From Nereocystis luetkeana (taxonomy: Eukaryota > Sar > Phaeophyceae > Laminariales > Laminariaceae): a stretch of DNA of 64,000 bases. The stretch lies in the NCBI GenBank assembly GCA_031213475.1, contig JARUPZ010000027.1, positions 2,169,001 to 2,233,000 of the forward strand, given 5' to 3'. Within the stretch, counting starts at the first letter, position 1; each line of letters starts with the position of its first letter. Both the position numbers and the translations under genes were made by a program. This document shows positions 5,816 through 60,832 of the stretch, in pieces. The notes under the pieces were generated by a model. The model was given only the letters and a program-made list of their open reading frames with translations. It was not told where the DNA came from and made no database searches.

Positions 5816-7642
5816 ATATCATACTTGGATTTATCACAAAAATACGTAGAACCGAACGAAACAAAATCGAAAGAGGACGAAAACAAACACGTGGACGGTT
5901 ATGGGGGGAGCCTCCTCTATTTATGGGGGGAGCCTCCTCTATCTCGACCAGTCCCACGACTGTTACGCGTATCAGGCACACTTGGTACCTGGTACCTGGT
6001 ACAAGGTTTTTCATTCATGGAGGCATTCGGACGTGGGGTGGCGCAAGGTAAAATCCGACGACAGTTTGTAATTTGTGCCACTGAAGAAAACGAAAGGCCC
6101 ACGAACTGTTGAACTTTTCAATTATATACTCTATAGAACCCAAAAAATGAAAGCCATAGCGACCAGCGAGCGGAAACCGGTATACCAGGTAAGAACTTAT
6201 TCCGGTAGCACACAGAAACGGTTACACCCGATGTTTGGGATTTTTCCAGCGCGTGGTTCCGGCAGGTATCAGATGATGAATTTTGAAAAAAAAAACCGAC
6301 AACCCTACCCCCAAACTCTAACCCTGCTCCCAACCCCTACCTTACCCGTAATAACGTTGTCGGGAAGGATTCGACCAGTTCAAATTTATACTCTACTAGA
6401 GTGCACACTCATGAAAAAAATCTCGGCTACGACGATACAATAAAACGTGTCTGATGAATCCACGCTACAGCCATCTCATTACCGGCTATATTTCTACAAC
6501 GGTATAAACAACAAACTGTTTTATTTTCTAGAACCGGAGGTTTCAAGATCTCCGCAGGCGTGTTCGACACGGGAACGGGCGAATCGCGGGTCAATCGCGC
6601 CCGTTTTTCCCCGTTTTTCCTTCAAGTTTCACCAACCATTTTGTGAGAACGCCGGTGGTCGCTTCTTCAAGATTGGAGTTCGAAAAAATGTTGAAACCCT
6701 CGAGTTTCCTCCAATCCGTTTCGGACACATTTATCTGGAAAATAGGTCATTTTTTCCATGAAACCGCGATATCTATCTGGAGTACCTTGCTGATATTGAG
6801 TACAGTGATCTTGGAAACTTCGGATGAAGACCCTGGAGAAATGAAGAAAGGGTCCGGAACTTCTCTCTGAAGAGCCGCGAGTACTCCGAAAAGAGCTATT
6901 CGGAATCCGGGATAAAAAACAGCTGAAGGCGCGTAAAATATTATTATTATACGTAGCGAACCGAGGTTCGGATCAATTTTTCGGATTTCACCATCCTCTT
7001 GAGAGAGATGGCTCGAATCCTACCACCCTGTTCGGCGATATAAACACCATTTGGGTATGAATATGAGTACCCAAACGGTCCTTGCGTTTCCGGACAGAGT
7101 GGTACCCGGTACATCTTAGCCGTGGGAGGCTGGGACAGGCTACGAGCAATATGTGTACTGAGAGGGGGAGAGCTCCGGTCCGCCGCCGAGCCAACGAGGA
7201 AAAAACAAGACCATGGGGCGAAAGTTCTGCAGGGCGGAATTTACGAATTTACCATAACCTCGAAACAAAACACAAAAAAGTCGACACATAACACACGAGA
7301 AACGAGCTGGCTCAATTCGGCGAGCGGTACTGGCATCATGGTCTCATGCAAGCGACCTTCCCGGAGAGAATTGTCACCCCAACTACCTACAGCCCGCTGT
7401 GGTGCTACGGAGCTACATTTGGTAGGATGGATATATTTTTTACCCCAACCATCTACAGCTCGGCGTGGTGCTATAATGTGATCTGTGGCGGAATAGACCC
7501 TTTAGTACTTGAAGGAAGACCTTGAAGCGTAAGGATTCGGCTTCAGAAGTGGCGCTGTCAAGAGACAGCCGTCCTGGACGTAGTGCACCGAACCTCAACA
7601 TTGCCATCGACACGAACTCTTACCATTTTAACCTAAACCTCA
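5816..7642. other. Unassigned intergenic DNA
   Basis: No gene is recognised. A 24-bp tandem duplication ending GGAGCCTCCTCTAT lies at about 5901-5945, and two overlapping TACCTGGTA motifs lie at about 5983-6000. The region 6400-6900 has several open frames on the plus strand without recognisable motifs or convincing splice structure. Confidence 0.3.
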
Positions 7643-12180: not shown

Positions 12181-12578
12181 ACAAGGTACCAGGTACCACC
12201 AGGTACCAAGTATAGAAATACGAGGGCGAAAACATGGGGTGCTACTGTAGCTCTCGCTATTTCTTTGTTATTCATACAGTAAAAACAACCAAGCTGGTGG
12301 GCGGCAATGGTACCAGGGTACGAACTATTTTCATGTTTTTCGGGCGTACGGCGTGGGTCGCCTTCAGACTTCCAGGATCTCTGCGGATTCAGACTTCCTG
12401 TAGAATCTCCGGCTTCCTATTTGTTGTATTTCTTATACTCTAGGATCTCCGGCTTCAGATTTCCTACGGGTTTCCGGCGACACCGAGCTCGAAAGTAAGC
12501 AAAGTTGTAAGGAATGCCCTGTATTCTAGGCGGCCAACTCGCTCACGGTATGTACGCGAAAACAATACCATTGGTGAC
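12181..12578. other. Spacer with degenerate GGATCTCCGGCTTC repeats
   Basis: Between about 12368 and 12480 the words AGGATCTC, CCGGCTTC and TTCCT recur irregularly. A TACCAGGTA cluster lies at 12185-12207. No gene is recognised. Confidence 0.4.
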
Positions 12579-12815: not shown

Positions 12816-13051
12816 TATTACGGGGGGCCATAGTAAATAGGACCAAATATTCTTATTACGGGGGACCATAGTTACTAGGACCTATGGTATACAGAAAAAC
12901 CTGTATGTTTAACCATTTTTACTAACAACATTTGGTCCTATTAACTATGGTCCCCCGTAATAGTGAATATAGGTAAATACATATTGGTACCTGGTACCTG
13001 GCAGGTTTTTGAGTGTACGGTAGGTCCTATTAACTATGTTCCCCCGTAATA
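12816..13051. repeat. TA-flanked MITE interrupted by a second MITE (outer copy)
   Basis: The left half (12816-12853) ends ...AAATATTCT and the right half (12963-13051) starts GTGAATATAGG. Together they rebuild the family sequence around a single TA. The right half also contains an expanded TACCTGGTACCTGG insert at about 12988-13003 where other copies have only TA. Confidence 0.85.
12854..12962. repeat. TA-flanked MITE nested in a sibling copy (inner copy)
   Basis: A complete element, TTACGGGGGACC at 12856 through GGTCCCCCGTAA at 12960, flanked by TA at 12854-12855 and 12961-12962. It is in inverse internal orientation relative to the outer copy. The host MITE supplies the empty site, so the TA duplication is demonstrated. 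Confidence 0.9.
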
Positions 13052-14866: not shown

Positions 14867-15557
14867 GGTATCGTCTCAAATGCAACACAAGCCATTACAT
14901 AGCTCCGCCGGACGCCCGCTTGGTAGGGACATGCACGCATTGACAAGGCTCCTGTGTTCCTTCCCCCTCCTCCCCCCCCTCCCCCGCCCCGATCCGCTTC
15001 GCTTGTGTCTTACTTTTTGTTGATTACTATTACTCATAATGACATTGTTAGGCCACTTCTTATGCTGTCGGATTTGCAGTCAGTTGGAAATGGTGTTATC
15101 AGCACGTTCGCAAGAGCTTTTGCCCCGAAAATGTGCGAAACTGCTGTTTCTCGCCTCAGATTGACTTGGACTTTTCTCCAAGACCTATCTAGAGGTGTTT
15201 CCCGCTTCTCCATGCGCCCAGATGCAGGAAATCACCTCCGGTACTTTTCCGATTCAACTGGGTCAAATACGATTACGATCAGGGATCGGATCGGAAAAAA
15301 CGTTTTTTCCGATCCGATCGGGGTTTTTAATCGTATTTGACCCAGTTGGATCGGAAAAGTACCGGAGGTGATTTCCTGCAACTGGGCACCTGGAGAAGCG
15401 GAAAATAGCTCTAGATAGGTCTTGTAGAAAAGTCCAAGTCATTCTGAGGCAAGAAACAGCAGTTTCGCACATTTTTGGGGCAACAGCTCGTGCGAACGTG
15501 CCGATAGCACCATTTCCAACTGACTGCCAATCCGACTGCATAAGAAGTGGCCTTACG
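14867..15557. mobile_element. 690-bp foldback element, copy A
   Basis: A 180-bp left part (TATCGTCTCAAATGCAACAC, then a C/T-rich tract) is followed by two inverted arms of about 250 bp each (about 15049-15300 and 15301-15555). The arms meet at a near-perfect palindrome around GGATCGGAAAAAACGTTTTT. The second copy (27508-28197) is nearly identical in length and sequence, so movement or duplication was recent. No transposase is encoded. A transcript through it would form a very long hairpin. Confidence 0.88.
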
Positions 15558-16012
15558 TGTGTGGTGTGTGCGTTTTTTTGTTGCGTTCATTCGATCTGTT
15601 CCAGCTAAAATATACCAGGTAATCTGTTCTGTTCTGTACAGTCAGTACGATGGTGGTTAATCGGAAACAACGGGGGCGTCGATTTTTTTCCGCGGACAAC
15701 CCGCTTCCTCGTCACCCCCCCTGATGGTGCTGGGGGGGGGGGGGGGGGGGTAAGGGCTAATAAGATTGCTGTTCACACCTGAATCCCACTGCTGTGCCGC
15801 TGAAGGGATACGAAAGTCTGTTAAAAAAACACAACAAGAACGAGGCTTCGCATTGTTTCTAATGTGCTCTATATGTAGGTACATACCTGGTACCTGGTGT
15901 GTATATTCCGGTACGTGCTACCAGGTGTATATTAACACTACTTCTGCTGTACGAACTGTTCCGTGTTATCAAGAGTAGGAAAGCCAGTCGCCCCGGTGGT
16001 CTCGCATACTGC
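15558..16012. other. Unassigned spacer with G-run
   Basis: Contains a G homopolymer at about 15734-15750 and TACC(A/T)GGTA motifs at 15613 and 15883. No gene is recognised. Confidence 0.3.
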
Positions 16013-18866: not shown

Positions 18867-20210
18867 CGCAAAACTTTGAAATATGGAAATCAAACAGACA
18901 GGAAATATTTTAGAGCGTCCATCAGACTTACAGGCCAGGTCGTCACTGAGGAAGGCAGGAGTGATGCGAGTCGAGCGAGTCTACCATGAATCGCCGCTAA
19001 CATCTCCATCAGATGGAACCCTTGTGCGGACTGAGTCGTAATAGGCCTACATATGACTCTCTGCTCATCGATGATACGATTGTGCAGCAGTGAGATGTAC
19101 CAGGTACGGTAGAACACTATCACACGGGTGATACAACAACACACACCCCAGGGCGAGTTTCCGAGACAAAATTCTCGATCTAGGGGGGCACACACAACGA
19201 ACATGCGGCTTTGGGGAGATTTCGTCGGCCTCCTTCCATACACACACCGTTCGGCGTTTGCACCCTCACCGTTGTCGAGCAAATCACCTTGGAAAATCGT
19301 CCGAGGGTGTGTGCGTACTTATCACACGTGTCATAAAATGTGATACGGTGTACCAGGTACGGTAATATGGTCGTCGCAACGAGCCCATCGTCGGTCGTCA
19401 TCATCAGTCTACTCTGGTCTACTGCCTACTGCTGTACCAGGTGAGCTGAAAGTCTCCGGCCGACCTCCACCACGCGACGATGACACGGTGGGTGGTGGTG
19501 GTGGTGGTGGTGGTGGTGGGTGTCACCGCTAGTTGTAGGCTTCGAAAACCGACTGTGCGATTATGTGATGATGCATGCGGCTGCCCGAAAGACGGCGTGA
19601 CCCTGTGTTGTAATGTTGTCATCCAGATATTTTGAAAAAAAAGCAGGCCGACGTGAAAGCTGAGATCCGTCCACAAAAAAATCTCCAACATTACAAGATA
19701 GACATATGAATGGTATATACTGTATACAGAAGGTCAACCCCAAGGCTTTGCGTGCGGAAGCCACGAGTCGCTTGTCGCGGATCTCTCGACTCCCTAGCCC
19801 CAAAATCGCGTTTTCGTTTCCCATGATAGTGGCCAAACGAACAGCATCGGCGGAATAATATCCTGAGCCCCAAAATTCGTTTCCCGTAAGAATTGGCCTT
19901 TACACACGTGGAAAAAACGAAGACGTACATACTTTCTAAAGGATGTGACGCCGTCCGCCGGGTATTTCGTGAAAAGAACGAAACAAGGAAAGAACGAAAC
20001 GCCAAAGGCTCACGAACGATCGTGCGATTCTGTGTGTACCAGGTACCAGGTATAGAATAAAGCAGTATGCACGAGTGTTCGAGCAAAATACTTCCACGAA
20101 GAGCGGCGAGATACGAGATGTAAAGAGCGTGTGAATATTCATACAAATACGTGAGCAGTGAGTGGATGTATGACCCTTATGGTGTGTGTACTCTTTTGAA
20201 CCGCCGTTCT
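18867..20210. other. Unassigned intergenic DNA
   Basis: A (GGT)n run sits at about 19488-19519. TACCAGGTA occurs at 19097, 19351 and twice near 20037. Open frames on the minus strand between 19690 and 20146 show no motif. Confidence 0.3.
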
Positions 20211-20395: not shown

Positions 20396-22431
20396 CTGTG
20401 GTGTATGCGCAAAAAGTACGAGAGATGAAGCGGCTGCCTGCCGCCGCAACAACAAAACAACAACAACATAAAGCAACAACAACAGCGAAAAAAAACCCAG
20501 CAATAATAGAAGCAACATCGAGAGGCATTCCTGATGCGGAATGCTCAGCCCGTATCGACGCACAGATGCGCGTCAGACTGGAAAAGAAAAGGGGCATGGA
20601 CGGCGATGTCACCATTCATGATGAAAAACAACGACTGCTGGTCTGAACGATTGTTGCTGTTGCTGTTTTTGCTGCTGCTTTGCCTGAATCGACACGCACG
20701 TATATATACCCTCACGTCCGTCCACTCTGATTGCGGGGAGCAAAGCCAAGTGCCTACGCGGTCGGGGGGACTGCTGCTGCCGTGTTGCGGCTGCCGCAAG
20801 GCTGTTTGTTCGTGTGGACTATCATTGTCCGAAGAAGTTTGCCCTCAAGTTTGGGGCTTCCTCGCTCTATCTTTTGGGAAGAGCAGCAGAGGTATCCATC
20901 GTGATTTTGGTTTAGGTATCGTGTCATAACCGATATTCATACGAAGTACGTCCGCAAATGTAAGGAACGCTGTGTGATTAATAAGGGCATAACACGGTCC
21001 TTACAAATCCGGACGGATTTACGACGGCATCACTTGGTTTTTATTTTTATTTTTTTCTGTTCTCGCGCTTTTATTAAAATAGGAGGGACAGGTGGCGGTT
21101 TTACCATGAAATCACGAATTTGCGTGTGTCTGCTGTCTGCTGCCGCAAATTCTTGTGAAAATGCCCTACCTCGTAGCAGGGTCGGGTAGGAGGCGGGCGA
21201 GGAGCTTCGATAGCGCCCTCTCGATCACGTAGCGCATAATTACGGCCCCTTGAGCTCTCTAGACCACTCAGCTCTGCTGACAGCTGAACTACTGATGTGT
21301 TCCGTGCATTTGTTGCATTTTGAAATCAAGCATCAGTATCTCACGAGTACGTGTTGGTTTGTCTCTTTGCTTTGTTGTGTGTCCATCATCACAGCAGAAC
21401 TAATTGTTTGTCATGAAAAAGTACGGCTCATCCGACCTTCCACGTTCCTTTCGTCTCCCTGCGCGACGAAAAAAACCAGGTATGAAGGTCAATCTGGGTC
21501 GAACTCGAGCCCTTCCAAGGCGCTCCAGAGTGCTCATGCGTGTCGGGTTTGATCTACAATCGCCGGCATGCGGGCGGCTAGAGACTAAGCTGATATACCT
21601 GGGATATTACTGCTTCTGTTTTGCGGCCTGCTGACTATACGAGTACAAAGACGGAAACTAAAGGTTACGCATATCATACGTACCACCACGGTACGGTACG
21701 AAGTACAGCAGTACCAGTATTCCGGTATTCGGGAAGAACGATGCCGCACCTTCCATGCCGCCACCGCCACGACCACCAAAGCTAGAGCTAGCGGTGCTCT
21801 GAGCTCCTTACCCCAGGGAGGACCCCCAAGCGATCCCATGTTGCAGTTTATTGGAGACTCTGACGAAGCAGGACAGGTAGTGCCAGCAGAGATGTTTGCG
21901 ACACATAGCAGCACCAAACCCAAAGCAAAACACACCCACACCGATCAAAGATGTCAGCAGACCAAGCGTCAAGCAGTCAACCGGTCAGGGTCATCCGTCA
22001 CACGTCAAGGTATTTTCTTCCGTCTAGACTCTTAATCAACGAACTAAACTTTAAGTTTTTTTGTCTGTCCTCAGCTTTTTGCCGTCTATATACGTCCGTC
22101 AAGGAACATATTTTGACGACATCTGTCAAGGGGGAAAAATACAATCTCCTGACATCTTTGACGCCGACGATGCGGCTTTTTTTTTCATTTTTCACCGCTC
22201 CGGTAGTCGATATCCTGCGGAGGCGTTCTCATGCTTGTCAACCAAAAAAATGTCAACTCGGTTTGAGGGGACCACCCACCACGTCGACGCTGCGCGTCCT
22301 CTATTCATCCTCACGTCGGCAACCCGTAGGGTTTTGCCCAGTACTCCAGGGAGGCTACAGCGTATACCAGTTCATTTTCTCTGAACTGATAGTGTACTGA
22401 GTGAAGACCCCTCCGATTATCAAAGTTACGG
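20396..22431. other. 5' flank of the SnoaL-domain gene
   Basis: No gene is recognised. AAC/AAA-rich DNA lies at 20440-20520. The interval just before the gene (21940-22430) is unremarkable, and I cannot place a promoter or transcription start. Confidence 0.3.
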
Positions 22432-22581: not shown

Positions 22582-25500
22582 ATGCTCCGACCACTCTCCG
22601 CGCAAGGAGCTGTAATGCTCTCGGCCTTCGGCAGCGCCCTTCTCGCATCCACCCCCCGCTCCGAGGCGCTTCTGGTGACGCCCTCGGCGCAAGCAACAGC
22701 AGCGCTGGCAGGAAGACATGGCCGACACGGCGTCGGGCACACCAATACTTGTTACACCTCCACAGCCGCTAGCGTATTTTCCGGGACCCGTCCGGTGCCG
22801 CCAAGAGCAGTAGCGGGGCGGGAGTGCGGCAGCCTGTTGATGGTGGTGCCAGCATCGCGCCCCGGGGGTGAGGGCGATGGGCTCGGGGAGGGTGAAGGCC
22901 ACGTTGAAGGGGACGGTGCGCTTGGCGAGTCGGGGGTGGTGGGTGAAAACGTTGAGATGAGCCTGGGGCAGCTCCAGACGGACGAGGAGATAGACGAGGA
23001 AGAGGAGGGGCAGGAGGTCGTTACCAGCAGCTCGGAGACACGGTGCGTATGTCTAGCATGCCTAGTATGCCTATGATAAGAGCTCTACCGCTGTAAAGTA
23101 CCCCGGTACATACTTGCCATTGTAAAAGCAGTGCCCAACATGTTACATAGCGTAGGAGGCGTACGTATGATATGATACCGGTAGCAGCCAGCGTAGACCG
23201 TTAGCGTTGTGTGGTGGTTCAAGCTTGCTGTGTGATGCACATCTCACGACCCTGCTGCTGACCTTTACCTTGGTTCACGGGATGAATTGGCCCATCTCGC
23301 GTGTCAACGTTTGACGTTCCGTTGGTGCATGCTGTCATGGCTGTCATGGCATACGAAGCGTACCTGGTACGGCCGTACTACAGCAGCACCTTTCGTCACC
23401 TTATTGCCCTACGACACAAATCGGAATCCTATTAATAGTCCTTCGCTCTCGCCGAGAACAAGAAGAGCATGCTCCTGCCGAATACAGCGGTAGACTCACA
23501 TGCCAGCGACCGGGCTGCAAAATACCTGGTACAGCATTGGCCTACAGCAGAAGTAAGATATGAAATTTCATACCATAGTAACAGGTACCAGGTATCATGG
23601 CCGGTGGATCGCCGATGGCTACTGAAAACCCTGGTGAGAGAGAGCCCCATCTTGAAACGGAAAGCGGGAGGGGGGGGGGGCGGTGAACTCAATATCATGC
23701 ATGGCCGTAGTCTTCCGACCATAGACCCTCGGATCCCTAGAATGCCGGGACGGAGAACGTCGGGTTTTCACCGGCCAGGCAGATATTGCTTGCACCAAGC
23801 GCGAAGCGCCGTGAGGTGTTCGGCGAGTGGCATGATGTGTGAGATGCATCCTACTAAGAACCGCTTGTGAGGCTAACTTGCATATGGACAACAAGCTTCA
23901 AGGAGGAGGAGGACGAGGAAGAAAGGGAGGAGGAGGGAGGCGGCGGGGGGGGGGGGGGGAGGGGGAGGAGGAGAAGGAGAGGGCGTTTTTTATCTCTGTG
24001 CGTGTGTTCTTGCGCCCACGTCGGTGTACACTACTAATATTACGGGGGACCATACCTGGTAGTAAATAGGAACAACTATTCTTAGTAAAATAGCGAAATA
24101 TATACCTGGTAGGTTTTTATGTATACCTTAGGTCTTGTTTAATATGGCCCCCCGTAATAGTGTACCAGTACATTCCTTCCCGCCCCTCCGCCCCGTCCGG
24201 TCTGCCCGCCTGTCTGTCCTCTTTGCCTTATCGCTCTTCCCAGTCCTTGTCCTTAACCTTATCCTCATCATTTTTTCCTTATTCCTATCCTTGTCCTTAC
24301 CCCTGTTGTTCCCTCGTTTGTGGTAAAAAAACGCCTCCAATGTGGGCAGCGTGTCAGGCAGTGCCGGCGGTGGCGTGGGGGAGACGGGCGAAGAACCGGG
24401 GAATAACAGTAAAGGTAGCAAGAAATCAAAGAAGAAGAAGAAGGGCAGGAGGCCTAAGCTTCGGGGGGAGGCACTGAGGGATGAACTGATGAGGCGGGAG
24501 AAGGTGGAGGAGGTGGCCGTTTTAGAGGTTAACTCGCAGTTCTACCGAGCTAGAGCGTACAAGGTATGTCAGAGGGGGAGGCAGGGGGGGAAGAAGGGAG
24601 AGGAAAGAAGGAGGAGGGGGGGGGGGGGGCGAGGAAGGAATAAAGGGAAGAACACGAGGGAGGGGGGGGGGGGGGGGGAGCGGGGAGGAAGGAAGGGAGG
24701 AAAGGAGGAAAAGAGAAGGAGACAGTGAAGAAACAGGGTCCCTTCTGCGACCACGAAGGAGTGGGCGGAATTCAATGCGATTGTTGCCGAACCCTTTGGG
24801 GACTAGACAGGGGAAAACGTGGCATTTTTCTATGATGACAGCACCGGCCACACTTAGCCGTGTGGGATGCTGGGTTGTAAATGTGGGAATTTTATATGCT
24901 TAGGTCTGAACTACACTCAATGCAAGGACTTGTACGAGTCGCGTGCAGCACGATACTACCAGTGTTCGTCTTACTGTGCGGTTCCATTAGTAGTAAACGC
25001 TCGGTGAGACTGCACTATAAGAATTCAAGTCCCTCTACCTGGGGTTACGGAGTGATGAGAGCAATATGCGTGCGGTCCTTCATCCGTCACGAGCAGGGAG
25101 TAGATAGAGTGCAATTACCGTGACGCTGCTTATTTTGTGTTGTGGGGTTAGAGCGCCGTGCTAGCATGCTGCAGCAGTGGGCGATAAGGCTGCTACCCGC
25201 TACCCTTGCCTCCTGTGCGTTGGGGCGGAGTAAAGGCATGAAAGGACGAGCCATCGAGCTGGGGTGGGATGGGAGCTACGAAAAACTGTCTGTGCGGTCA
25301 GTCGATCCCTGTTGTTGTGATCATCGTTGTGCTGCAACGCTTTTATGCCGGCTGTGAAACGAAACGGTGCACCCGGCGACCGATCACACGGAAGCAGCGC
25401 GAGTAGAAGGTGTAATGTGTCGTGAGGGATAGCCCGTCGCGAGAGCTAACCAGGAGCAGCCCTCGTCACGTTTTCTGCGAGGGGCCTTCAAGAAGGCTCC

Positions 25501-28500
25501 GACATATTACGGGGGACCATAGTTAATAGCACCAAATATTGTTAGTAAAAATAGCGAGATATATAGGTTTTTATGTATACCATAGGTTCCATTAACTATG
25601 GCCCCCCGTAATAGTATGCATACAGCAGCGCACCGTTGAGGCGTTGTAGTGATATTTTTGGCGATACCGGAGGTATTTTGCTCAGACCTCCTGTTGCACA
25701 TGCCTATTTTCGCGCGGGCGTTCTGTTGTAGAGACCTGCTGTTGCACAGACCATTTCTACGAATAGTATTGTTTTGCTATTCAAAGGCACGGATGGCAAA
25801 TCGCGCGGTCTGATGCTATTACGGGGGACCATAGTTAATAGAACCAAATATTGTGAGAAAAATGGTTAAATATACAGGTGTTTATGTATACCATAGGTCC
25901 TATTGACTATGGTCCCCCGTAATAGTACGTGGAAGTAGTAGCACAGCAGTATCATACTGACTGGGCGTGGTGGATAAATCATGAACCAATCTCCCGCTGC
26001 CCGAGCTTGCTCCCCGGATGTAAACCCTCCTGACCCCCCGCTCCTCCCCGAACTTGCTGTATTTTCCAAAACGCCTGCTCACTCCCCAGGAGATAGACGA
26101 CCTTAAAGACGTGTGGGATAAGAGCGATCTGTCGGAGTGCATTCGCAGCGTCGGGGCGCCGCTCAAGGGCTACAGCGACATCATAGAGGTGCGCCCAATC
26201 TACGCCAGCCACCACTTGTTTTCGCCACAAGCTTGTATAACTGCCAGCTACTAAAGCTGCAAGCTGCTCTAGCTGCCAGCAACTGCTGGTACATCGTAGC
26301 TGCGAGATACTATACCTGCTATAGCTGCAAGCTACGCGCGAGCATTGTGTTCGTGCGAGCTGCGCGCAGGCATTTAGTCTTTGCAAGCTGCGCGCGATCG
26401 TTGTTTCCGTTTGGTGCAGGTGTACCGTGCTTTGGTTCGCCGTCTTGTCTTGGTGCTGCTTGTCTTTGCGCGGCGGTAGCTGCTTCGAGAAGCGCGGTGC
26501 GGTCAACACGTACGTTGTCTTTTTATCTGCCTTTGGTCTTCACCGTTGGGAGAGGAGAGCGGCGTTATCGGATGATAGTATGTTGGGTGCGATCAGCTTG
26601 GGCGGCAATCCCGCCGGCAGCCCCCTCACGCCGTCGCCCACGCCCCCCCCCGACCTTTTTGCTCCAGCTATGAAAGAAGAAACGGTAGCGGTAACGGTGG
26701 CGGTAGCGGGAAGCGGTAAGATTTGGCATGCAATCAACGGTAACGGTATATGTAGCAGTAGCGGTAGCGGTAACTTTAGCAGTAACGGTAGCGGTAACTT
26801 TAGCAGTAACGGTACCGGTAGCGGTAGCCTTATTGTACCTGGTAGAGGATATCGATACCGTTGGTGGTCACGGTAGCATTAACGAAAACGGTAGCGATGA
26901 CGGTAACGGTAGTATTGACTGTAACGCTATCGGTAGCGTTGCGGTAACGGTAGCACTAACGGTAACGTGCGGTAACCTTACCTTCGACGGTAACATTTGT
27001 TTTTTGTCGCTGAGATTAACGCTAACATCAACGTTGACATTAACGCCAACGTTGAAAACGGCGTCGACGCGATGGTAGGTGACTTGCGCCGCACCACTCC
27101 GTAGACCTACAGCACATAAGACTCGGGGCGGGCGAAGCCGTTCATTGAAAGAAAGCACCCCCCCAACTGGAACGCTCCACCTGCTGCTTGTCGCTTTGTC
27201 GCCTTGCCGGGATGTAATGGCTGGTACGGGTCACCTCCCTTACACATGCGCAGGAGTACAAGACGGAGTTTCTCCTGGGGAAGAAGCAGGAGAAGCCCGG
27301 CCTGCGGCCTTTCAAGATCAGGAACCTCGAGGTGACTCACAGAGCTAGCGAGTGTCTGCGGTGGCAAAGGTGTGCGTGTGCGCGCGCACGCGGTCCTGGG
27401 ATAAACAAATTCATCGGGTCTTCCGTCGTGGAAGTTGAGCTTGGTGTCGGACTTTTGTCGGAATAGCGGGGCGGGCTTGTGGGCGGGGGTGGAGGGGGAG
27501 ATGAGACGGTATCGTCTCAAATGCAACACAAGCCATTACATAGCTCCGCCGGACGCCCGCTTGGTAGGGGCATGCACGCATTGACAAGGTTCCTGTGTTC
27601 CTTCCCCCTCCTCCCCCCCCTCCCCCGCCCCGATCCGCTTCGCTTGTGTCTTACTTTTTGTTGATTACTATTACTCATAATGACATTGTTAGGCCACTTC
27701 TTATGCATTCGGATTTGCAGTCAGTGGGAAATGGTGTTATCAGCACGTTCGCAAGAGCTTTTGCCCCGAAAATGTGTGAAACTGCTGTTTCTCGCCTCAG
27801 AATGACTTGGACTTTTCTCCAAGACCTATCTAGAGGTGTTTCCTGCTTCTCCATGCGCCCAGATGCAGGAAATCACCTCCGGTACTTTTCCGATTCAACT
27901 GGGTCAAATACGATTACGATCAGGGATCGGATCGGAAAAAACGTTTTTTCCGATCCAATCGGGTTTTTTATCGTATTTGACCCAGTTGGATCGGAAAAGT
28001 ACCGGAGGTGATTTCCTGCATCTGGGCCCATGGAGAAGCGGGAAACACCTCTAGATAGGTCTTGGAGAAAAGTCCAAGTCATTCTGAGGCGAGAAACAGC
28101 AGTTTCGCACATTTTTGGGGCAAAAGCTCGGGCGAACGTGCCGATAGCACCATTTCCAACTGACTGCAAATCCGACTGCATAATAAGTGGCCTTACGATT
28201 TTTTTTGTGCATGTGTTTTATATCTGTTTTTTGTGTTTGTGCAAGGCTACATTGCGGCTTATACCACCTTTTGTTTACTCCATGTTTGGTCTATTGCGGT
28301 AGGCCCTGTTTGTGACGCTCGTTTATTTTTTGCTGTTTTTTTTGTTACTTTTCCTTTTTTAATTTCGTTTTTGTTCTCTGGTTCCATTTCCATGGTTTTA
28401 GGTTCGGACTTGCGGGACGCTGGCCTGGGTCACCTGCGTGGAAGACCTGCGAAACCCATACAAACCCTACCCTAAGACGGTGAGCCGCGGCGAAGAAGGC

Positions 28501-28903: not shown

Positions 28904-31900
28904 CTACTACTACTACTACTACTAGTAGCAGTATTAATAGTAGTAAGTGGCAAAAGTAGTAGCAGTAGTAGTAGTAGTAGTAGTAATGATGGTAGTGATC
29001 GTAGTGACGGAGGGACCTCACTCACTGGCATTGACGGCGGGACGCGAACCAATGATGAAGGCACAATCGTTGCGATTTCATGCGCAGGCTCGCGTACTGC
29101 CGTCGGTAAACATGATGGTAGGATGACAGGCCATCGACGAGGTAGTGGCGGTCGATCACCCGCCCGCCCGCCCGCCCGCCTTCGTCGCAGGTGGGCGTGC
29201 CGTACTTCACGGCGGGGGACTCTTGTGGGTCAGGGTTGGGGTGTTTGGAACAAACCGTCAGGATCGGGGTGCTTAGAATCTGACCTTTTTTTTTTCAGTC
29301 TATCGCACGATAACACGCAGCAACGTTTCGAGCTACGATAGCGAGACTTGAGAGAGCGCACACAGACGCCAGTCTGCTGTCAGTCGGCTGACAAAGACTC
29401 GCGCCTGTTGCCGCTCACTCTTTTGCCGCTGCTGTGGCTAGAAGAGCTTGCTTGTCGCGTGATGGTGCGATAGAATGCCAAACCAAAATATATTTGTCAG
29501 GTTCCAAACACCCCAATACTAAGCCCAGCCAAGCCCCCCAACGTGGACCTTGACGCGCTCACCTCCGACCAAGGCGATGAAGGGCCATCGACAGCTCCTG
29601 AAATGTTGGTAGCTGCTGGCAAGTAGTCGAGAAGAGGTGTTTCCTCCCTCTACACGAGTGGTATTATTAGTATCGTTAACATTTGAGTAGTGAATCGCGT
29701 ACCTATGGCCTCGACGAATGGTGTCATCGACGAGGTACAATATCCATGCAACGGTTGGGTCGAGAGCCTGGCACCCACAACAAATATCGTATTCTGAGCC
29801 TGGTCCAGGTATTGGGACCCAGGTGTAGCGGCCTAAAAAGCAAGAGAGAAATGCGGTTTTGTCGACCGTCTACCGTGGGAGGAGCGTGCAGCGGTTATGT
29901 ACGACTACGTGTCGCCATGCTGCGCGTGTGTCGTGCACTTCGGACGCACCTCCTGCCCTAACAGCCGGCAGTACAGTGGTGGCACTGTACGAGGTGGCCG
30001 ATGCTGTTATCGTAGCATCACTCTTTTTCGCCACTTTTCCCCCGTGGAGCCCTCTGTGGACTATCACTTCACACCCGTAACCATGAGCGCTACATTTCCC
30101 CCCCCCTGGAGCCCTACCGGTAGGTTGGGTGTGTTAGAAAAACTACCCATCTACCCCCCCCCCCCCCGCCACACGCTCCGTCTCGAAAGGGATGCGTGGT
30201 CAATGGTAACATAACTGAGACAAGCACACACCCCCCCCCCATTACCCCCCCCCCCCCTGTATATTATATATAGGTTGGGTTGGCGTCGGTTGCCAACGAC
30301 ACTGTAAAACACGCCGCGCATTAATCCAGCTAGACAACCAGAGTATCGTTTTTTTTCGCGGCGGTCGGTCACAGCTGGTGGTCGATTTGGATCGTGTGCG
30401 CGGGGTGGAGAACCTTTACTCTGCACAAGGGGAATGATCGTATCACGTGGTGTATATGGTGAGGCACCCAAGAGGCAGTTACGTAGTACTCCCATTGCTG
30501 TCTGTGGAAGTAGCCACACCGGATATTAATTTTACTCATTGAAGCTGTCATCCATATGCAAGTCCGCCACACAAGCGCTCCCTATTAATAGTACGATGCG
30601 GCTCACCCTTATTGCGACTCGCCGAACACCTCACGGCGCTGGCGCTTCGCGCTTGGTGCAAGTGATGTCTGCCTGGTCGGTGAAAACAGACGTGCTCCGT
30701 CTCGGCCTTGCAGGGATGCGAGGGTCCATGGTCATACGACTACGGCCATGCATAGTACCGAATACACCCCCGTCCACGACTGCGCTGAGATAGCGTGGCG
30801 GGTATATCGAGTACAAATGTTATTCAAGAAAAATACAAACCCATCTCATGAATCAACCAAAACGAAACAAAACAATAACAAATCAAACCATAGAAACCCA
30901 GCCGAACCGAATCAAACCAGACCAAACCAAACCGAACCACACCACACCAAACAAAACCCATCCAAACCAAACCAAACCATGCTCAAACTCAAACTCACAC
31001 CCAACCCCCCACTCCCCCTCCCCCCGACGGACCACCAGGTCCAGCTGGTGACGAACGTCTTTCGCAAGACCAGCAGTGGCTGGCGGCTCGCGCGGCATCA
31101 CGCGTCGGACCGAGACGTCGCCACCCCGAAAGGCTCCTCTGGAGGGCCTAATGTGTCGGCCGTGATGGGTGGCGGCGGCGGTGGCGGCGGCAAACAGTCC
31201 CGCGACGGGCAGTCGGGGAACAGCCTTCTGTCACACTTCGTCGACGAGAACGGGAAGGTTACAGAGCTCTCGGCGAGAATGTTCCGCGTCTCCGACGGGG
31301 AGATAACGTGAGCGATACACTATACATGATGACATAATCACAACGGTGTGTTTATCAAATAGCAGGGTATACAATCTGGGAGTGTCCGGGTACATACCCG
31401 AGCAGAGTATATACCATACCTGAGCAGGGTGTATACAACCTGAAGGTACCCGGGTACATACCCGCCCGAGCAGGGTATACCTGGTGTACAATATGAGGGT
31501 ACCCGGGTACCTGGTACTTACCCGAGCAGGGCATATACAACCTGAGAGTAAGGCTTACACTCTAAGGGTACCGGGGTACATGCTCGAGCAGTGTATATAC
31601 TTTATTTGGGTACCCGGATACATATCCGAGTTTGACCAAAACGACCGGGTCTGGTACCCGCGTACCCCAGGGCATATGCTAGTATACCCTACTATACACG
31701 CACCTGCATAGTATTCCCCGGTGCATGTTTTTTATTTTATTTTTATTTTTGTCAGTATTTCTTTCCAGTTCCAGCTCGCGCGAGTTTTTTTTGTGTGTTC
31801 GGCGACCTTCTGAACAAGCCGTGGCCACGGAGGTGTCCTCCCTTTTCGCCCGCGGCACATTAACTGATTGCCTTGTATTTTTTATTGCGCAGAGGGTTTC

Positions 31901-34900
31901 GTTCAGCATTCTCGTTTGTCGTCGTTTTTCATCGAAATTATACCAGCTCACGCTATCTTGCTTTCAGCGACCGAGGTTTCACTGTTGTCTTTGTCGTAGA
32001 GTTCTGACCCCCGAACTACAGCCAGTAGGAGTGGCAGTCTAGCTAGCATGGGTTAGACTCCCCAAAACCCAATATCATCCTAACTATTAAGATATTACAG
32101 TTTAGGGTTTCCAAGGTACCTTTGGGGCTGGGGTTTCCAGGGCTTCCAGGGTGCCTTCAGGGGTAGGGGTCTCAGGCTGCATTTTGGGGTAAGGTTAGGG
32201 ATAATAGGGTTACAGGGGTATACGTGTTCAATAACTTCAGTCATAGGGCAAACTGCAGTCCCGTTTTTGGGGACAAACCAATCAATTTCTAAGTAGTTTG
32301 TCCCCAAAAACGGGACTGCAGTCCTCAAAGGGTTAAGCCGCTCGAGAGCGCGAGAGAGTAGCTCGGCGCTTGAGAGGGGACCCTCGACCCTTCGGAATGC
32401 GGTCCTGCCGAAGGTGTCCGATACAACAGCAGTATTTGTCCTTTGGGGGGCGTGGCATAGCGACGTAGCGACCTTGTAACGACAAGTGCGCTCTTATCAA
32501 GTGCCTAGGGAGAGCGTGTGCGGCCTTGCAAGTATCATCATCACCATGCGCGTGTGTTTTACAGCTCGGTATGTTGGAGTTCGGACACACGCTCTATGCT
32601 AGTCTAATAGTCTACCAGTCTATTACTCTCTTATTAATAGGCTGCTTCGTGCGGCCGATGCTGCAATCGGCCTTTTGTTTCAGCGTGAATTCCCTCTGTA
32701 CTATACCTGGTACAAGCGAAGCCTCCAAGGAGTCAAGTTTTGTTTTCTTTTTTTTTGCCCTCCGGCGGGCGGGTAAAACATAGCTTAAGGTCACCACTCT
32801 CCCACATCTACGTGTGTCGTGTGTCATATTTAGCTCGCTCACAGAATACCACCGGGATGGCGTAGCACCGGTGTCTGGTACGTAGATGTTGTGCTTGGTA
32901 TAGATGAAGGTCCAACGGGATGACCTGTCATGGTAACATGAAGGACTCGACTCGGATTCCGCTGTTTTGCGCACAATTTGTGCTGTGCCTTTTCGTTTTT
33001 CATTATAATGGGGTAGACTATGCCACTAGACGTATGCCATTGAGCTAGTGTGTTATCGACAATAGCATGGAGGACTCGGCTCGGGTTCCTCTGTCTTGCG
33101 CACGTTTTGTTGTTGTTGTTGTTGTTGTTGTTGTGCCTTTTCGTTTTTCGTTACCTCGGGGCAGACCATGGCACTAGACTGATGCCAATGAGCTACCTGC
33201 GGTGTGCTATCAACGACGATACAAAGACCAACACTACACAAAGGAACAAAAAAAAAGAATAGTAAATTAATACGAAAGGAACAACAACAGCAGTAACAAG
33301 AACAACACACAGCAAAAACATATAAGACGAGTAACAGCAGTAGGAGTAATAACGAAGAATAGGAACATCCACCACAACATTATGGGAACAACATCAACAA
33401 GAAAAGAACAGGAGCAGCAACAGGAGCAACAACAACAATATTAACAGCAACTACACTACTTGACTTACAACTGCAGCTACAACTGCAGCTAGGTAACTGA
33501 GCGGCAACAGGCGTCGGTCGAGCTTGCCTTACTTTGTTGCTCTTTCTTTTTCCGAAATTATATTCAGGGTGCACATGCCCTCAAAAATGGAAAACCGTGC
33601 CAGGGTGACGGCCAACATCACGCCTTTCTCTCCGGGGCAACTCATTTTTATCGTACGAACTACAGCACATTACACCTACAGCTGTAAGAACGGAAAAGCT
33701 GGTCCAGGGCTGCATTTCCTGCTTGAAAATGGGTGTGCTGTCTACTAAAATCGTGTATAACGGCTCTCGAATCTCTTGTCGTCCAACACCCTCCCGCATC
33801 TATTTGGTACTGCAACTCACGCGATCAACCAAGCTTTTTCGGCCATCAAGGTCAATTCTTCAAACAAGCCCAGAATATGGGCCAACACGCCTCACTCTTT
33901 CTTACAACAATTCGCTTCGGCCCCCGACCTCTATTAAAGGTAATGGAAAATATTGTATTACGGGGGACCATAGTTAATAGGACCTATGGTATACATAAAA
34001 AACTATTTATTTAACCATTTTTAATAACAATATTTGGTCCTATTAACTATAGTCCCTCGTTATAGTGGCATTTTACAGTAGGAGTGTGGCGGACGGCGAC
34101 TTTCGAAAAACTCGCCGTGACGGACGGACGCTTGCCAAGTACCTGGTAGCCCACAACCGCGAAACCTCATTGCAATTTTGGAGCTCGCTTGAAAAAATGC
34201 AACCCGCCGCAATTTATCGGTGTTTATTGTTTCAGGGTCAACCGTGCTCTCGGACCAACTCCAGTAGATCCCACCCCGATTTTAATCGGTCAACACCTCC
34301 CCCCTGCTCCCCCTCGGACCTGATACCATTTGGCACCCTCTTAGTGGTTCTTGAATATAACCAGCCCTAAGCAGGAGCCGCCGGAGGCTGAGAGCGCGAA
34401 GCGCGATTCGTAATCGATCGGGTTGCATTCGTAATTCTGCTGTTCTACAGTAGGGTTGCAATTAGCACTGCCCATGTTATAACCGTAGGTGCTATACCTG
34501 GTTGGTTTTAGTGTGGAGACGTCGGGGCCCTGTGGTTATATTTTGTAAATACGCGCGTCCGTAAAAGGTGCTCGTTTGTTTTGTTGATGGAAGGACCCTA
34601 GTGGACTCGTTTGTTTGCTAAGATGATAATGCTCTTCTCCTTTCCCGTTCTTGTTGGAGATCAGACCGGTCGATATCTCCGACCTGAACATAGACCTGAC
34701 CGACGGCAATGGTGATGACGACGACGACGACGATGACGACGAGATTACCATCGAGGCCTCGGTGGAGGACGAAGACATGGACAAGATTACGGGCGGCCGC
34801 GATGGCGGTGGTGGTGGGAGCAACCTACCGCCCTATCTGCGCAAGCTTATTCAGGACAAGGCGAGTGACGCATGTTTTAACCGGGGGTAGGTGGGTACGT

Positions 34901-37314
34901 TGGTAGCGTAGGTACGGGTAGGACAGTATGCAGTTAGGTGTGGTTCCAGGTACCGGTAGGTATTAATAGGTACGACGCAGGTAAAAGTGAGGTGTATCGA
35001 TAAGTCGGTGAGACATATCAGGTAGGTAAGTGACCCGCGCCGGCGCACGGATTGCTTGGGGCTGGTTTAAATTTGCGGGAAAGCATTGGCGAGAGGCGGG
35101 GGGGGGGGGTGGCGGAGCTCATTAATGTCATAGTCCGTTGTCTCAGATTAACGTTGTTGAAAAGTCCCATGTCGTCCTCGTTAAAAAGGCTTTTTTGCCG
35201 CCAATGCGTACGCGCCCGAGTCGGGCCGACAATACTCAAAGGTTCGGTTTCGACCGCCCACATACCTTCTGCAGCTACTTATTCTGTGCTGCAGCACATC
35301 GCCAGGGCATGTGACAACAAAAGCCCATGTACCCCCCCCCTATGTATTTTTCGTAGATTGGGTGGGCGTTGGTCGGCAACGACACTGTAAAGCATGCCGC
35401 TCATTACGTGAGCTAGACAAGCAGGGTACGACTTTTTTTTTTCGGCGGTCGGTCACAGGTGGCGATCGAGTCGGATCATGTGGTCGGGGTGGGCAACCTT
35501 TACTCCGCACCAGGGGAATTATCGTATCACGTACTGGTAGTGTTTGGTAACGCACCCAAGAGGCAGTTAACATAGTACCAGGTAGCTCCATTACTGTCAC
35601 TGGAAGTGGCCACACGCGGAAGTAAATAATTTCATTGAAGCTTTCATCCATGTGCAAGTCCGCCTCACAAACGCTTCTTATTAATAGTAGGATGCAGCTC
35701 ACCCTTCATGCGACTCGCCGAACATCTCACGGCGCTTCGCGCTTGGTGCAAGCAATGTGCGCCTGGTCGGTAAAAACCTGACGTGCTCCGTCACGGCACG
35801 GCATTGTAGGGATGCGAGGGTCTATGGTCATACGACTACCGCCATGCATGATAATTAGTACACCCCCCTCCTCAAAAACGGTTCTCAGTAGGATGCTGCT
35901 CACCCTTCATGCGACTCGCCAGACACCTCACGGCGCTTCGCGCTTGATGTAAGCAATGTCTGCCTGGTCGGTGAAAACCCGACATGCCCCGTGCCGGCAA
36001 TGCAGGGATGCGAGGGTCTATGGTCATACGCCTCCGGCCATGCATGAGATCGAGTACATATCTCCTATCGAGTAAACCCCCTCCCCTCCCGCTCCCCCCC
36101 CCGAACACCCACCCACTCTCTCACCTTGACGTATGTTCCTCTGGACTTAAGAAGACTCATACTAGGGATGAAAAACTCTAAAACTCTTGAAAATCAAGTA
36201 CAAACTCAAAAACCCACTGACTATTAATAGAACGATTTCGTTGAAACTTTACTGAACGAAAAAAACAAAAAAGGTGAAGGAAGCAGTGAGCAAGACGGAC
36301 CTGAAGGCCATCATCAGGCGCCGCGATGGTTCCGACGGCGGAGGACCGAAGGACGCCGGGGCCGACTGGGAGTTCAAAGATGGCATTCCTGTTTCGGGAG
36401 GGGGGGGGGACGGATGGGGTGACGGTCGGCGCAGTCGAGAAGGCGGCGGAGGTAGGGGATCTGGGTCTCGGAAGGACGATGATGAGGATGATGAGGATGA
36501 GGGCAATGTGAGGGAGTCGAGGGAATTGACGCGGGAGACGGTGGATGCTGTGAGGAAACTGGCGGCGGCGGGGATGATCGAGGACAAGGAAAAGCGCTTG
36601 CTTCTAGCGGACGTGATTCGGTGAGTGTGGGCGCGGGGGGGGTGGTGGGTGATTATGACGGATTTGGTGGTATTCATGGTCGCGGTAGTGGTGATTTAAA
36701 TGGGAATTACGTTCCCCCCCTCTCATTTTCGTTGTGGGGGTAAGGGGGATGACTGCCATGGTCATGGTAAGATCATTGCGATGGGAATGATAACGGTGAT
36801 GGCGAATTGTGACGATGGTGAGGATGATTAACACGGTGGTGGGAACCAGGACTCGACGCACGCTATATGCGGCCGCTCGATGCAAGGACCTATGGCAACT
36901 CGATCATCAGGCCGGAGGCGAGAGGTTCGATTAGTTTGACCCCTGCCATACGAAAGGCTGATTGAACAAAGTTGTCCTAACCCGCAGCCGAACAAGTAGT
37001 GGGCAAAAAAAATACTTGGATCATCACACCATTACATTACCTACACACGTAGTTCGATAATCGAGTTTACGATGTATCTTCTCCAAGCGTTTTTATGTAT
37101 TTTATTCCTTGCCCCCCCCCCCCCCCCTACGCTTGCCACCTCGTTTGTTGTATGCAGAAACGCCTCGTCCGATGGGCCTTCCATCACCGAGGTGGCGTTT
37201 GAGGTGCTGGTGGGAGGGGGCATGGGGCGAGAGTTCGACCCCACGGGGTGCGAGGAGTTCGTCGATCAGTGCAAGGCTTTCGCCATTCAGCTGGCGGATG
37301 AGCAGAGAAGGTGA
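22582..37314 (+). CDS. SnoaL/NTF2-like domain protein with long charged extensions, nine exons
   Basis: Exons: 22582-23042, 24350-24563, 26090-26188, 27254-27331, 28402-28479, 31039-31307, 34665-34860, 36274-36620, 37158-37314; about 632 aa. All junction phases agree across the model. The SnoaL-like fold spans residues about 205-335: VLEVNSQFYRARAYK (exon 2 end), VWDKSDLSECIRSVGAPLKG (exon 3), FKIRNLE (exon 4), GTLAWVTCVEDLRN (exon 5) and LVTNVFRKTSSGWRLARHHA (exon 6). Such domains form a small cone-shaped barrel that binds ligands or dimerises; the substrate is unknown. The N-terminus is hydrophobic (residues 9-33) and may be a targeting segment, but lacks a clear ASAF motif. Exons 7-8 add an Asp run, LPPYLRKLIQDK and a Gly/Asp-rich linker. 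Exon 9 gives EVAFEVLVGGGMGREFDP. An in-frame ATG at 22432 would add 50 residues. The gene ends at TGA 37312-37314 unless that site is spliced. Confidence 0.85.
23691..23912 (-). repeat. R500 repeat, partial inverted copy (SnoaL-gene intron 1)
   Basis: The complement of the R500 tail: GGCCATGCAT end at the left, CTTGGTGCAAG and the AAGCGGTTCTTAGTAGG region at the right. It provides the version without TATTAATA at the site where copies B and C carry it. Confidence 0.8.
23895..23985. repeat. GA/G-rich purine tract
   Basis: AGGAGGAGGACGAGG-type repeats leading into a long G-run at about 23946-23959, in intron 1 of the SnoaL-domain gene. Confidence 0.7.
24038..24159. repeat. TA-flanked MITE carrying two TACCTGGTA inserts
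   Basis: A family copy with ends TTACGGGGGACC and GGCCCCCCGTAA. Relative to sibling copies it has 7 extra bases at two places, 24053-24061 and 24103-24111. At each, a single TA has become TACCTGGTA. This is the cleanest evidence for the micro-insert described in the findings. Confidence 0.9.
24564..24735. repeat. Purine-rich GGA array at start of intron 2
   Basis: G-runs and GGAAGGAGG words start directly after the donor of exon 2 of the SnoaL-domain gene. The opposite strand gives only Pro/Ser-rich open frames. Confidence 0.7.
25505..25613. repeat. TA-flanked MITE, copy (intron 2)
   Basis: TA, TTACGGGGGACCATAGTTAA through TATGGCCCCCCGTAA, TA. Its internal GAGATATATAGGTTTTTATG is a reference empty site for one of the TACCTGGTA inserts at 24103. 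Confidence 0.9.
25817..25924. repeat. TA-flanked MITE, copy (intron 2)
   Basis: TA, TTACGGGGGACCATAGTTAA through CTATGGTCCCCCGTAA, TA, 204 bp from the previous copy and in the same orientation. Confidence 0.9.
26225..26405. repeat. AGCTGCAAGCT-type degenerate repeat
   Basis: The words AGCTGC, GCAAGCT and GCGCGAGC recur through the first 200 bp of intron 3 of the SnoaL-domain gene. Confidence 0.5.
26675..27065. repeat. GGTAAC/GGTAGC hexamer array (intron 3)
   Basis: Nearly 400 bp of GGTAGC, GGTAAC and AACGGT hexamers, degenerate toward the right. It encodes Ser/Asn/Gly or Val/Thr runs in every frame and is non-coding. Confidence 0.8.
27508..28197. mobile_element. 690-bp foldback element, copy B (SnoaL-gene intron 4)
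   Basis: Same structure and length as 14867-15557: leader with C/T-rich tract, then inverted arms of about 250 bp meeting at GATCGGAAAAAACGTTTTTT. The copies differ at only a few scattered positions. It lies inside intron 4, so the pre-mRNA would contain the hairpin. Confidence 0.88.
28606..29005. repeat. (AGT)n trinucleotide array (intron 5)
   Basis: About 400 bp of AGT/GTA repeats, switching to the complementary (ACT)n at about 28902-28920 and back. This gives long poly-Ser or poly-Val/Leu open frames on both strands that are not genes. The local inversion allows a perfect hairpin. Confidence 0.9.
30268..30775 (+). repeat. R500 repeat, copy B (intron 5)
   Basis: A near-complete copy, from GTTGGGTTGGCGTCGG to the tail GGCCATGCAT. 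It carries TATTAATA at about 30584 and is followed by an ACACCCCCG C-rich stretch. Confidence 0.85.
30840..31012. repeat. AACC/AAACC-rich array before exon 6
   Basis: AACCAAACC-type repeats, about 170 bp, just upstream of the pyrimidine tract and acceptor of exon 6. The minus strand is correspondingly GGTTTGGTTTGG. Confidence 0.7.
31325..31690. repeat. 40-bp array rich in GGTACCCGGGTAC (intron 6)
   Basis: Imperfect units containing CCGAGCAGGGTATAC, AACCTGAGGGTACC and CGGGTACATAC recur about eight to nine times. Many units contain the palindromic GGTACCCGGGTACC core. Confidence 0.75.
31735..31990 (-). repeat. SINE family 2, partial body copy (intron 6)
   Basis: TTTCCAGTTCCAGCTCGCGC, then TTCTGAACAAGCCGTGGCCA and GAGGTGTCCTCCC align with the family 2 body at 10500-10600. 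The tRNA head is not recognisable. Confidence 0.55.
32246..32335. repeat. TTAA-type MITE, copy (intron 6)
   Basis: Arms CTGCAGTCCCGTTTTTGGGG and CCAAAAACGGGACTGCAGTC, right TTAA at 32332-32335. The left terminal bases are missing or diverged. Confidence 0.78.
32930..33225. repeat. Tandem duplication of about 130 bp
   Basis: GGACTCG(A/G)CTCGG, TTTTGCGCAC, TGTGCCTTTTCGTTTTTC and GCCA(T/A)TGAGCTA occur in the same order at about 32940-33050 and 33070-33195. The second copy carries a (GTT)n expansion at 33107-33132. Read on minus, GTAGCTCATTGGCATCAG is A-box-like, so a tRNA-related origin is possible. Confidence 0.65.
33956..34064. repeat. TA-flanked MITE, copy (intron 6)
   Basis: TA, TTACGGGGGACCATAGTTAA through CTATAGTCCCTCGTTA, TA, with a diverged right end. 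Confidence 0.88.
35350..35868 (+). repeat. R500 repeat, copy C (intron 7), with micro-inserts
   Basis: A full copy up to GGCCATGCAT. Compared with copies A and B it carries TACCAGGTA at 35575-35583, TACTGGTA near 35539 and TATTAATA near 35680, each where another copy has only TA. Confidence 0.85.
35878..36056 (+). repeat. R500 repeat, tail-only copy (intron 7)
   Basis: Begins at ACGGTTCTCAGTAGGATGC and ends GGCCATGCAT, followed by a C-rich tract at 36068-36110. It lies in tandem behind copy C. Confidence 0.8.
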
Positions 37315-60777: not shown

Positions 60778-60832
60778 ATCTATTATTAATATTAATATTA
60801 ATATTAATATCACTACTATTATTAATATTAGG
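60778..60832. repeat. TATTAA/ATTAATATTA microsatellite
   Basis: Tandem ATTAAT hexamers, flanked on the right by GGTACCAGGTACG. Confidence 0.8.

Follow-up and report, generated by a model that had tools for sequence, protein, structure and literature searches.

The nine-base word TACC(A/T)GGTA (hereafter TACCWGGTA, where W = A or T) is dispersed throughout the genome of the kelp Nereocystis luetkeana. It is described here from a stretch of 64,000 bases (the window; positions 2169001-2233000 of contig C27, within a 465-Mb genome of 1,987 contigs). The word is very likely (probability of roughly 0.86) to be the repair scar of a TA-targeting transposon of the Tc1/mariner type, with a palindromic miniature inverted-repeat transposable element (MITE) of ~79 bp, the CCACTC MITE, as the likely donor family. 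A preliminary description of the window had read the word as an excision scar containing two plus three terminal bases. This reading is supported by the gain of the word at TA dinucleotides, its recurrence, its palindromic target preference and the polarity of its variants.

Dispersal of TACCWGGTA and its gain at TA

The window contains 35 exact TACCWGGTA sites (at least 34 had been counted previously), compared to a mean of 0.36 and a maximum of 2 in 100 dinucleotide shuffles, confirming that the word is far more common than expected by chance. Genome-wide, the extended pattern TACCWGGTA-N10-TA is found 18,460 + 18,520 times (36,980), and its reversed control 160 + 129 times (289), a 128-fold enrichment. 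The main sample comprises the window and loci L001-L020 (256.4 kb of non-N bases, not picked by MITE match), and a larger data set of ~345 kb (344.7 kb) adds loci chosen by MITE match. Locus L021 was excluded throughout, and L023, L024, L028 and L029 were excluded from later counts as duplicates. Site density is lower outside the window (56 sites in twenty 10-kb stretches), and the main sample, window included, has 91 sites. Extrapolation from these 91 sites, from the 56 outside sites or from the genome-wide pattern count and TA frequency gives a very rough genome total of 1.3 to 3 x 10^5 sites, on the order of 10^5.

Most sites are solitary, with flanks unrelated to each other. One-base variants of the word are in excess at eight of its nine positions, TA included. 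Among 107 independent sites, 55 have A and 52 have T at the centre. Eight CCWGG pairs have a seven-base spacing, and two of these combine the A and T types, which simple slippage would not produce. It is still plausible, as suggested in the preliminary description, that these tandem runs reflect repeated use of the regenerated TA. Local hopping was considered and rejected, as scars are not clustered above random TA dinucleotides (19 gaps of ≤300 bp; mean 14.5 and maximum 24 in 300 simulations).

Copies of a second family, the TTACGGGGG MITE, show how the word is acquired. The copy at 24038-24159 (forward strand) carries two footprints, at 24053-24061 and 24103-24111 (the latter at MITE consensus position 63, a recurrent site), both identified by exact-word scan and comparison of repeat copies. 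As had been noted, the sibling copies at 25505-25613 and 61181-61288 (both forward strand) have TA only at the positions compared. Insertions in 88 copies of this MITE (117-nt consensus) were called blind to the motif, and 22 calls at alignment ends were dropped as unaligned flank. Of the 18 internal insertions of at least 3 nt, 14 have the form TA-x-TA; the others comprise a decayed copy and three unrelated insertions. Exact CCWGG between two TAs makes up eight of the 18 (one within a compound insert), and the six further TA-x-TA insertions include CCGG, CGTGG, CCCTGCCTGG and CTTAA. When all repeats are compared with each other, the most frequent insertion of at least 5 nt is CCTGGTA, counted in any rotation (13 entries, representing ~9 of 394 insertion places in a count that still contained the duplicate loci L023, L024, L028 and L029). 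The alignment of repeat families proposed earlier thus gives TA alone as the common state and CCWGG as a gain. At 35576-35584, the L035 copy of the repeat is TA-only in register, in agreement with the earlier comparison, but the window copy at ~238-398 aligns only with other gaps, making that comparison weaker.

The recurrent MITE position, AAATATA-TA-GGTTTTT, has 3,004 exact empty copies genome-wide and 320 copies with CCWGG (~10%). TA alone is presumably the ancestral state, judging by a majority count made without an outgroup. In a hand count of 100 listed copies among the 320, CCTGG and CCAGG occur 60 and 40 times, respectively, in the same MITE orientation, and a single inherited insert cannot account for both. 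For all nine local insert-bearing copies, the nearest neighbour (by pairwise distances, with no tree) lacks the insert. Together, these two observations indicate that the inserts arose repeatedly. A minisatellite-like region of L011 likewise has one unit both as AGC-TA-TTGTTT and as AGC-TA-CCTGG-TA-TTGTTT, and the same unit is present on the other strand with two tandem scars.

Target preference and the candidate donor element

Flanking sequences were analyzed at the 107 independent CCWGG sites with the scar removed and 20 tandem sites left out. The preference is identical to the left and right of the TA: a pyrimidine at +1 (A in only 7%), a purine at +2 and T at +3 (43%), followed by T at +6 (52%) and A or T at +7 (86%), and it fades by about +8. 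Each side is separately significant at +6 and +7 (chi2 of 41-54 per side). The recurrent MITE site scores 2.9 and 4.4 by the CCWGG profile, compared to a random-TA mean of -1.05. Removal of microsatellite-like flanks (4 CCWGG sites, with 8 TTAA sites and 3 MITE sides in the parallel analysis below) leaves the preferences unchanged. A palindromic preference centred on TA is the pattern expected of an integrating transposase dimer, and its inner part resembles the Tc1 target consensus, CAYATATRTG.

Although no intact donor element had been recognized in the window, a search for inverted ends of the form TA-CCA...TGG-TA, as suggested in the preliminary description, uncovers a short palindromic MITE, with one TA-flanked copy at 7021-7104. 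This element is ~79 bp long with ends TA-CCACTCTGTCCGG...CCGGACAGAGTGG-TA, and terminates in CCA on both strands. Twelve aligned copies give the consensus TA-CCACTCTGTCCGGAAATGTAAGG...CCTTATATTTCCGGACAGAGTGG-TA (mean column identity 71%). Four full copies have 77-80 bp between the TAs, and TA is found on both sides of, for example, the copy at 7021-7104 of the window and those in L001, L007 and L035. In the 31-nt arms of the 12 copies, 71.7% of cells are paired (31-42% when slid), a figure favoured by the reading of the arms from the consensus. A covariance model gives 46 matches on both strands of the 344.7 kb, representing ~22 copies and one truncated copy (L006:1-40) that was omitted from counts, with the match in L032 and other weak matches retained. 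The element has inverted ends, is under ~600 bp and non-coding, and is present in many copies, as is typical of MITEs. Across the genome, there are 198 occurrences of its 18-base terminus, TACCACTCTGTCCGGAAA, and none of the control sequence.

The CCACTC MITE was found without use of its flanks, and these can be compared with those of the scar. Its 31 flank sides score 0.32 by the CCWGG profile, random TA dinucleotides score -1.14, and none of 5,000 random draws is as good. The match is lost when the profile is shifted by 1 to 11 bases, and neither the TTAA nor the TTACGG profile fits the flanks (p = 0.91 and 0.89, respectively). The scar is linked to this element through its terminal bases and its preferred target, and not through a direct pair. 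One of 40 forms at the recurrent MITE site (C29:6150988) resembles the right end of the 79-bp element, beside the GGTTTTT target.

The scar variants are polar. C-n-TGG forms are enriched for n = 1 (31 vs 12.7), n = 2 (127 vs 3.5) and n = 3 (9 vs 1.1), and the mirror AGG forms for n = 0, 1 and 3 stand at 25/28.7, 12/15.6 and 3/1.1. The n = 4 forms are too few to be informative and point in the opposite direction (1 and 3 vs 0.3). The CCWGG target preference is common to CTGG (31 sites, p = 0.0005), CCCTGG (9 sites, p = 0.0005), CCGG (23 sites, p = 0.0095) and CCTTGG (3 sites, p = 0.0005), and is not seen for CAGG, CGAG, GCAG or TTAA (p = 0.34 to 1.0). By hand count, 44 of 57 matches at the MITE site are TA-CCCTGG-TA and three are CCCCTGG, with no CCCAGG between two TAs. 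One-sided sites number 3,224 (control: 497); among 28 listed, eight read on into CCAGGG(G)-TA, and no continuation is CCTGGG-TA.

A second pairing of element and scar serves as a positive control. The word TATTAATA, the probable footprint of the TTACGGGGG MITE family, is also dispersed (67 in 256 kb vs 1.8 expected in about the same data). Its flanks favour G, T and A at +1 to +3 (56, 53 and 49%), as do the insertion flanks of the TTACGGGGG MITE (62, 64 and 57%), giving the common target TAC-TA-GTA. With microsatellite-like flanks removed, GTA follows TA in 16/142 TTAA sides and 27/118 MITE sides compared to 750/35,612 random sides, so the excess is not a microsatellite effect. In L011, one kind of TA is found empty, with TTAA and occupied by the TTACGGGGG MITE. 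Most simply, TATTAATA is the scar (TT + AA) of this MITE, and the shared target indicates that a scar retains the target signature of its donor.

Proposed excision mechanism and alternatives

The proposed model for scar formation is as follows. A transposase would insert the MITE at a TA within a palindromic target (reading outward: pyrimidine, purine, T, n, n, T, A/T), duplicating the TA on both sides. Excision would leave three bases (CCA) as 3' overhangs on both sides of the gap. End joining would then align these overhangs with a one-base A-A overlap, followed by gap filling, and resolution of the mismatch in either direction would give CCAGG or CCTGG between two TAs. Terminal CCA with a one-base A·A overlap can in this way account for the CC(A/T)GG scar. 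Less frequent joints would give CTGG, CCGG, CCCTGG and CCATGG, and every scar would retain two TAs open to renewed insertion. The overhang length, the A-A joint with its mismatch repair and the transposase itself are putative components of this model. A five-base overhang model (self-annealing CCAGG) was initially favoured. It was dropped due to the polar variants, the lack of full CCWGG ends and the supply of CCA by the CCACTC element; a donor with full CCWGG ends was sought, and there is none in the data and no sure one at the recurrent MITE site.

Several results weigh against the excision-scar model or its assignment to the CCACTC MITE. With respect to the joint, the n = 0 form (90 vs 50.6) is in excess, although partly as MITE sequence; the mirror core AGG is also somewhat above random for target preference (25 sites, p = 0.03); the recurrent MITE site has T and A in a ratio of ~60:40; and the full fill-in product CCATGG is rare (0 in 345 kb, 5/40 forms at the MITE site). 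CCCTGG is commoner than CCATGG, which the simplest model does not explain. With respect to the donor, the copies are diverged, 12 of the 22 were used to build the model, and chance could account for the six weakest matches. For no site were the empty form, the form carrying the 79-bp MITE and the scarred form all found. The joined flanks of the 22 copies have no clear empty twin, the L035/L037 match being gapped there and the L032 match being to itself. Searches anchored on one MITE site gave no sure donor, with ends reading CCAG followed by a non-G base outside the search. No transposase could be linked to the element: the DDE_3 profile has no matches, Transposase_1 has none (its control is silent too) and none of the 28 DDE_1 matches could be placed inside such an element.

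It is unlikely, although it is the most probable of the rival explanations, that the scars are Tc1/mariner-type footprints left by a different element, one with CCA or CCWGG ends that has since become rare or disappeared, and that the 79-bp MITE is only a relative sharing its target preference. The age and divergence of the MITE copies, the lack of a direct occupied/scarred pair and the excess of scars over copies (~8 per copy; 91 sites and 11 copies, or 12 with the truncated one, in the 256-kb sample) would all fit such an element. However, both the terminal CCA and the in-register target preference match the 79-bp MITE. The only other clearly TA-bounded TA-CC inverted pair belongs to a 586-bp element ending in CCG (L005:7600-8188, TA-flanked with inverted ends CCGTAATCATGCGAAGGTTCGCACC, one end also in L030), and the remaining pairs, of which part were checked, appear to lie within longer inverted repeats or the TTACGGGGG MITE. 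An exact palindromic word with preferred flanks might also be a protein-binding or regulatory site under selection. This is very improbable given the clean seven-base gain at TA dinucleotides within repeats (~10% of copies at a single MITE site), the surplus of one-base variants (TA included) and the flanks shared with footprint-like length variants.

The eight pairs at seven-base spacing could suggest a minisatellite or replication slippage spreading TACCTGG units. This has almost nothing to recommend it otherwise: most sites are single with unrelated flanks, two of the eight pairs mix A and T, and slippage requires a first unit and does not explain why TA should be chosen or why the preferred flanks are palindromic. 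If DNA were eliminated in a programmed manner at every generation, the sequenced nucleus would lack most donors, and the surplus of scars over visible donors would be accounted for. Scars are decayed, copied within a palindromic repeat (L011) and coexist with remaining donor copies, so they look inherited, and elimination is extremely improbable. Under the excision-scar model, it is possible, though doubtful, that excision was largely uncoupled from re-insertion, with a host or domesticated transposase purging most MITE copies at the cost of one stereotyped joint each. If so, the several-fold excess of scars over remaining copies would mean that the genome holds a near-complete log of purged elements.

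The TA duplication, terminal inverted repeats and short footprint with both TAs kept place this system with Tc1/mariner transposons. It resembles Sleeping Beauty in its TA target, the TA kept on both sides and the A/T central base, which in Sleeping Beauty results from the mispairing of two identical overhangs. The footprint of Sleeping Beauty and Frog Prince, TAC(A/T)GTA, is listed as C(A/T)GTA in a table of PMC3878927, and PMC7827188 describes three-base 3' overhangs at the Sleeping Beauty donor site and nicking by mariner transposases three bases inside the element. Sleeping Beauty differs in having three core bases and CAG ends and in belonging to an unrelated organism, whereas the scar here has five (CCWGG) and the element CCA ends. 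Mos1 termini also begin with CCA, and excision of Mos1 usually leaves a single overhang in the scar (TACCATA). In contrast, most scars here seem to comprise two overhangs with a one-base overlap, and TATGGTA/TACCATA is merely 1.8-fold enriched, partly as MITE sequence.

Stowaway elements of grasses are similarly short, palindromic and TA-flanked, and are described in PMC1925063 as leaving short terminal fragments at TAs with re-use of the scar TA. However, the grass Mariner terminus is CTCCCTC (PMC4423477), as opposed to CCACTCTG here (the terminus of the CCACTC MITE being CCACTCTGTCCGG), and Stowaway leaves several scar sequences where one dominates here. The TA target and remaining scar also differ from the TTAA target and seamless excision of piggyBac. 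In Ectocarpus, non-autonomous TA elements are abundant (almost 12,000 Mariner-Tc1 copies in 17 families; PMC12477816), but the main text of that paper contains no words beginning "footprint" or "excision", and the comparison is by description only.

A full-text literature search returned no report of the motif as a whole word. A broader search on footprints in algae was dominated by general algal papers and carries little weight, with neither footprint term in the 15 entries listed of 2,135. The Tc1/mariner scar mechanism, the A/T centre in Sleeping Beauty and the re-use of a scar TA are already known. The scale, the stereotypy and the two paired donor-scar systems are new, and no report was found of the element or of the five-base joint. 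Excision scars are usually few and varied; in a rice survey, excisions were almost always accompanied by deletions or filler DNA (PMC4423477). Here, one joint dominates and is extrapolated to occur at on the order of 10^5 sites, so that a single assembly allows excisions to be counted, located and approximately dated. Such a record makes the rate of transposon departure, DNA targeting and host end joining testable, and the effect of seven added bases in genes can be asked. The two donor-scar pairs in one genome (CCACTC MITE/CCWGG and TTACGGGGG MITE/TTAA) serve as mutual controls, and scars of seven and six bases are below the reach of repeat annotation.

Further copies, footprints and repeats

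The best CCACTC MITE copy in the window, that at 7021-7104, is an 80-bp palindrome with its TA duplication (TA-CCACCCTGTTCGG...CCGGACAGAGTGG-TA; 78.3 bits). A degraded copy at 63039-63121 (reverse strand; 67.2 bits) has lost one TA, and a weak match at 20940-21021 (25.7 bits, E-value: 5e-4) is a possible degraded copy. Elsewhere, C14:3458714-3460597 is a 1,884-bp stretch bounded by two perfect termini in facing orientation, and may be an autonomous or longer element. Seven copies of the 18-base terminus lie on one strand at C8:5902231-6074335 in steps of ~27-31 kb, a spacing that resembles a large tandem duplication. The terminus is found neither in viral contigs (18 bases) nor in prokaryote genomes (23 bases), although neither collection is meant for eukaryotes. 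Tandem scars in five viral contigs (two overlapping sites each) were judged to be due to chance.

Two other candidates were rejected. At the pogo-like DDE_1 locus L051, no inverted ends flanked by TA were detected under the thresholds applied. A repeat with the head TACCC(A/T)GGTTGTC was considered as a donor; it has an A-rich tract in front and no matching inverted end among the listed pairs. This repeat, with its A-rich tract before TACCC(A/T)GGTTGTCTA, is taken as similar to a short interspersed nuclear element, and is found at about 97-190 of the window (reverse strand) and in L008, L017 and L026. A Pfam scan of four long open reading frames of the window gave one marginal match. One open reading frame resembles a plastid protein, which would fit a brown alga or a close relative.

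The other CCWGG footprints in the window, located by exact-word scan, are at 3336-3344, 3591-3599, 3732-3740, 6183-6191, 12187-12195, 15613-15621, 15884-15892, 19098-19106, 19351-19359, 23361-23369, 23523-23531, 23586-23594, 26836-26844, 31508-31516, 32704-32712, 34140-34148, 39184-39192, 40867-40875, 43280-43288, 45035-45043, 45968-45976, 54559-54567, 56622-56630, 57580-57588, 60833-60841, 61167-61175 and 62341-62349. Tandem pairs are found at 5986-6001 (sites at 5986 and 5993) and 20037-20052 (20037 and 20044). The latter reads CCAGG on the forward strand. The run previously placed near 12990 consists of one intact word (12988-12996) adjoining a decayed one. The four-base version described earlier, TA-CTGG-TA (TACTGGTA), exists, but spans 35532-35539 and so starts at 35532 instead of near 35539; its variant class has the same target preference. 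Six-base variants of a class also seen at other sites, TA-CCAGGG-TA, can be read at 12311-12320 and 44141-44150.

TATTAATA (TA-TTAA-TA) occurs in the window at 1747, 14107, 14197, 18851, 23430, 28633, 28932, 30583, 32632, 34961, 35679, 36222, 52844, 60784-60827 and 61563. An AT-rich tract surrounds the group near 60.8 kb, and the sites at 28.6-28.9 kb belong to a GTA microsatellite. A third TA-flanked dispersed word, the non-palindromic TACAGCAGTA/TACTGCTGTA, is at 21704, 19427 and 62331, with 29 sites in 345 kb and 25 in a 264-kb sample (0.8 expected); its flanks weakly match the CCWGG profile (p = 0.008). The window also contains a degenerate array of 12-base units similar to GATACCGTAAGC (57176-58070) and two related long inverted repeats at 15047-15556 and 27685-28199, with arms of 255 and 230 nt that are 91 and 94% complementary, respectively.

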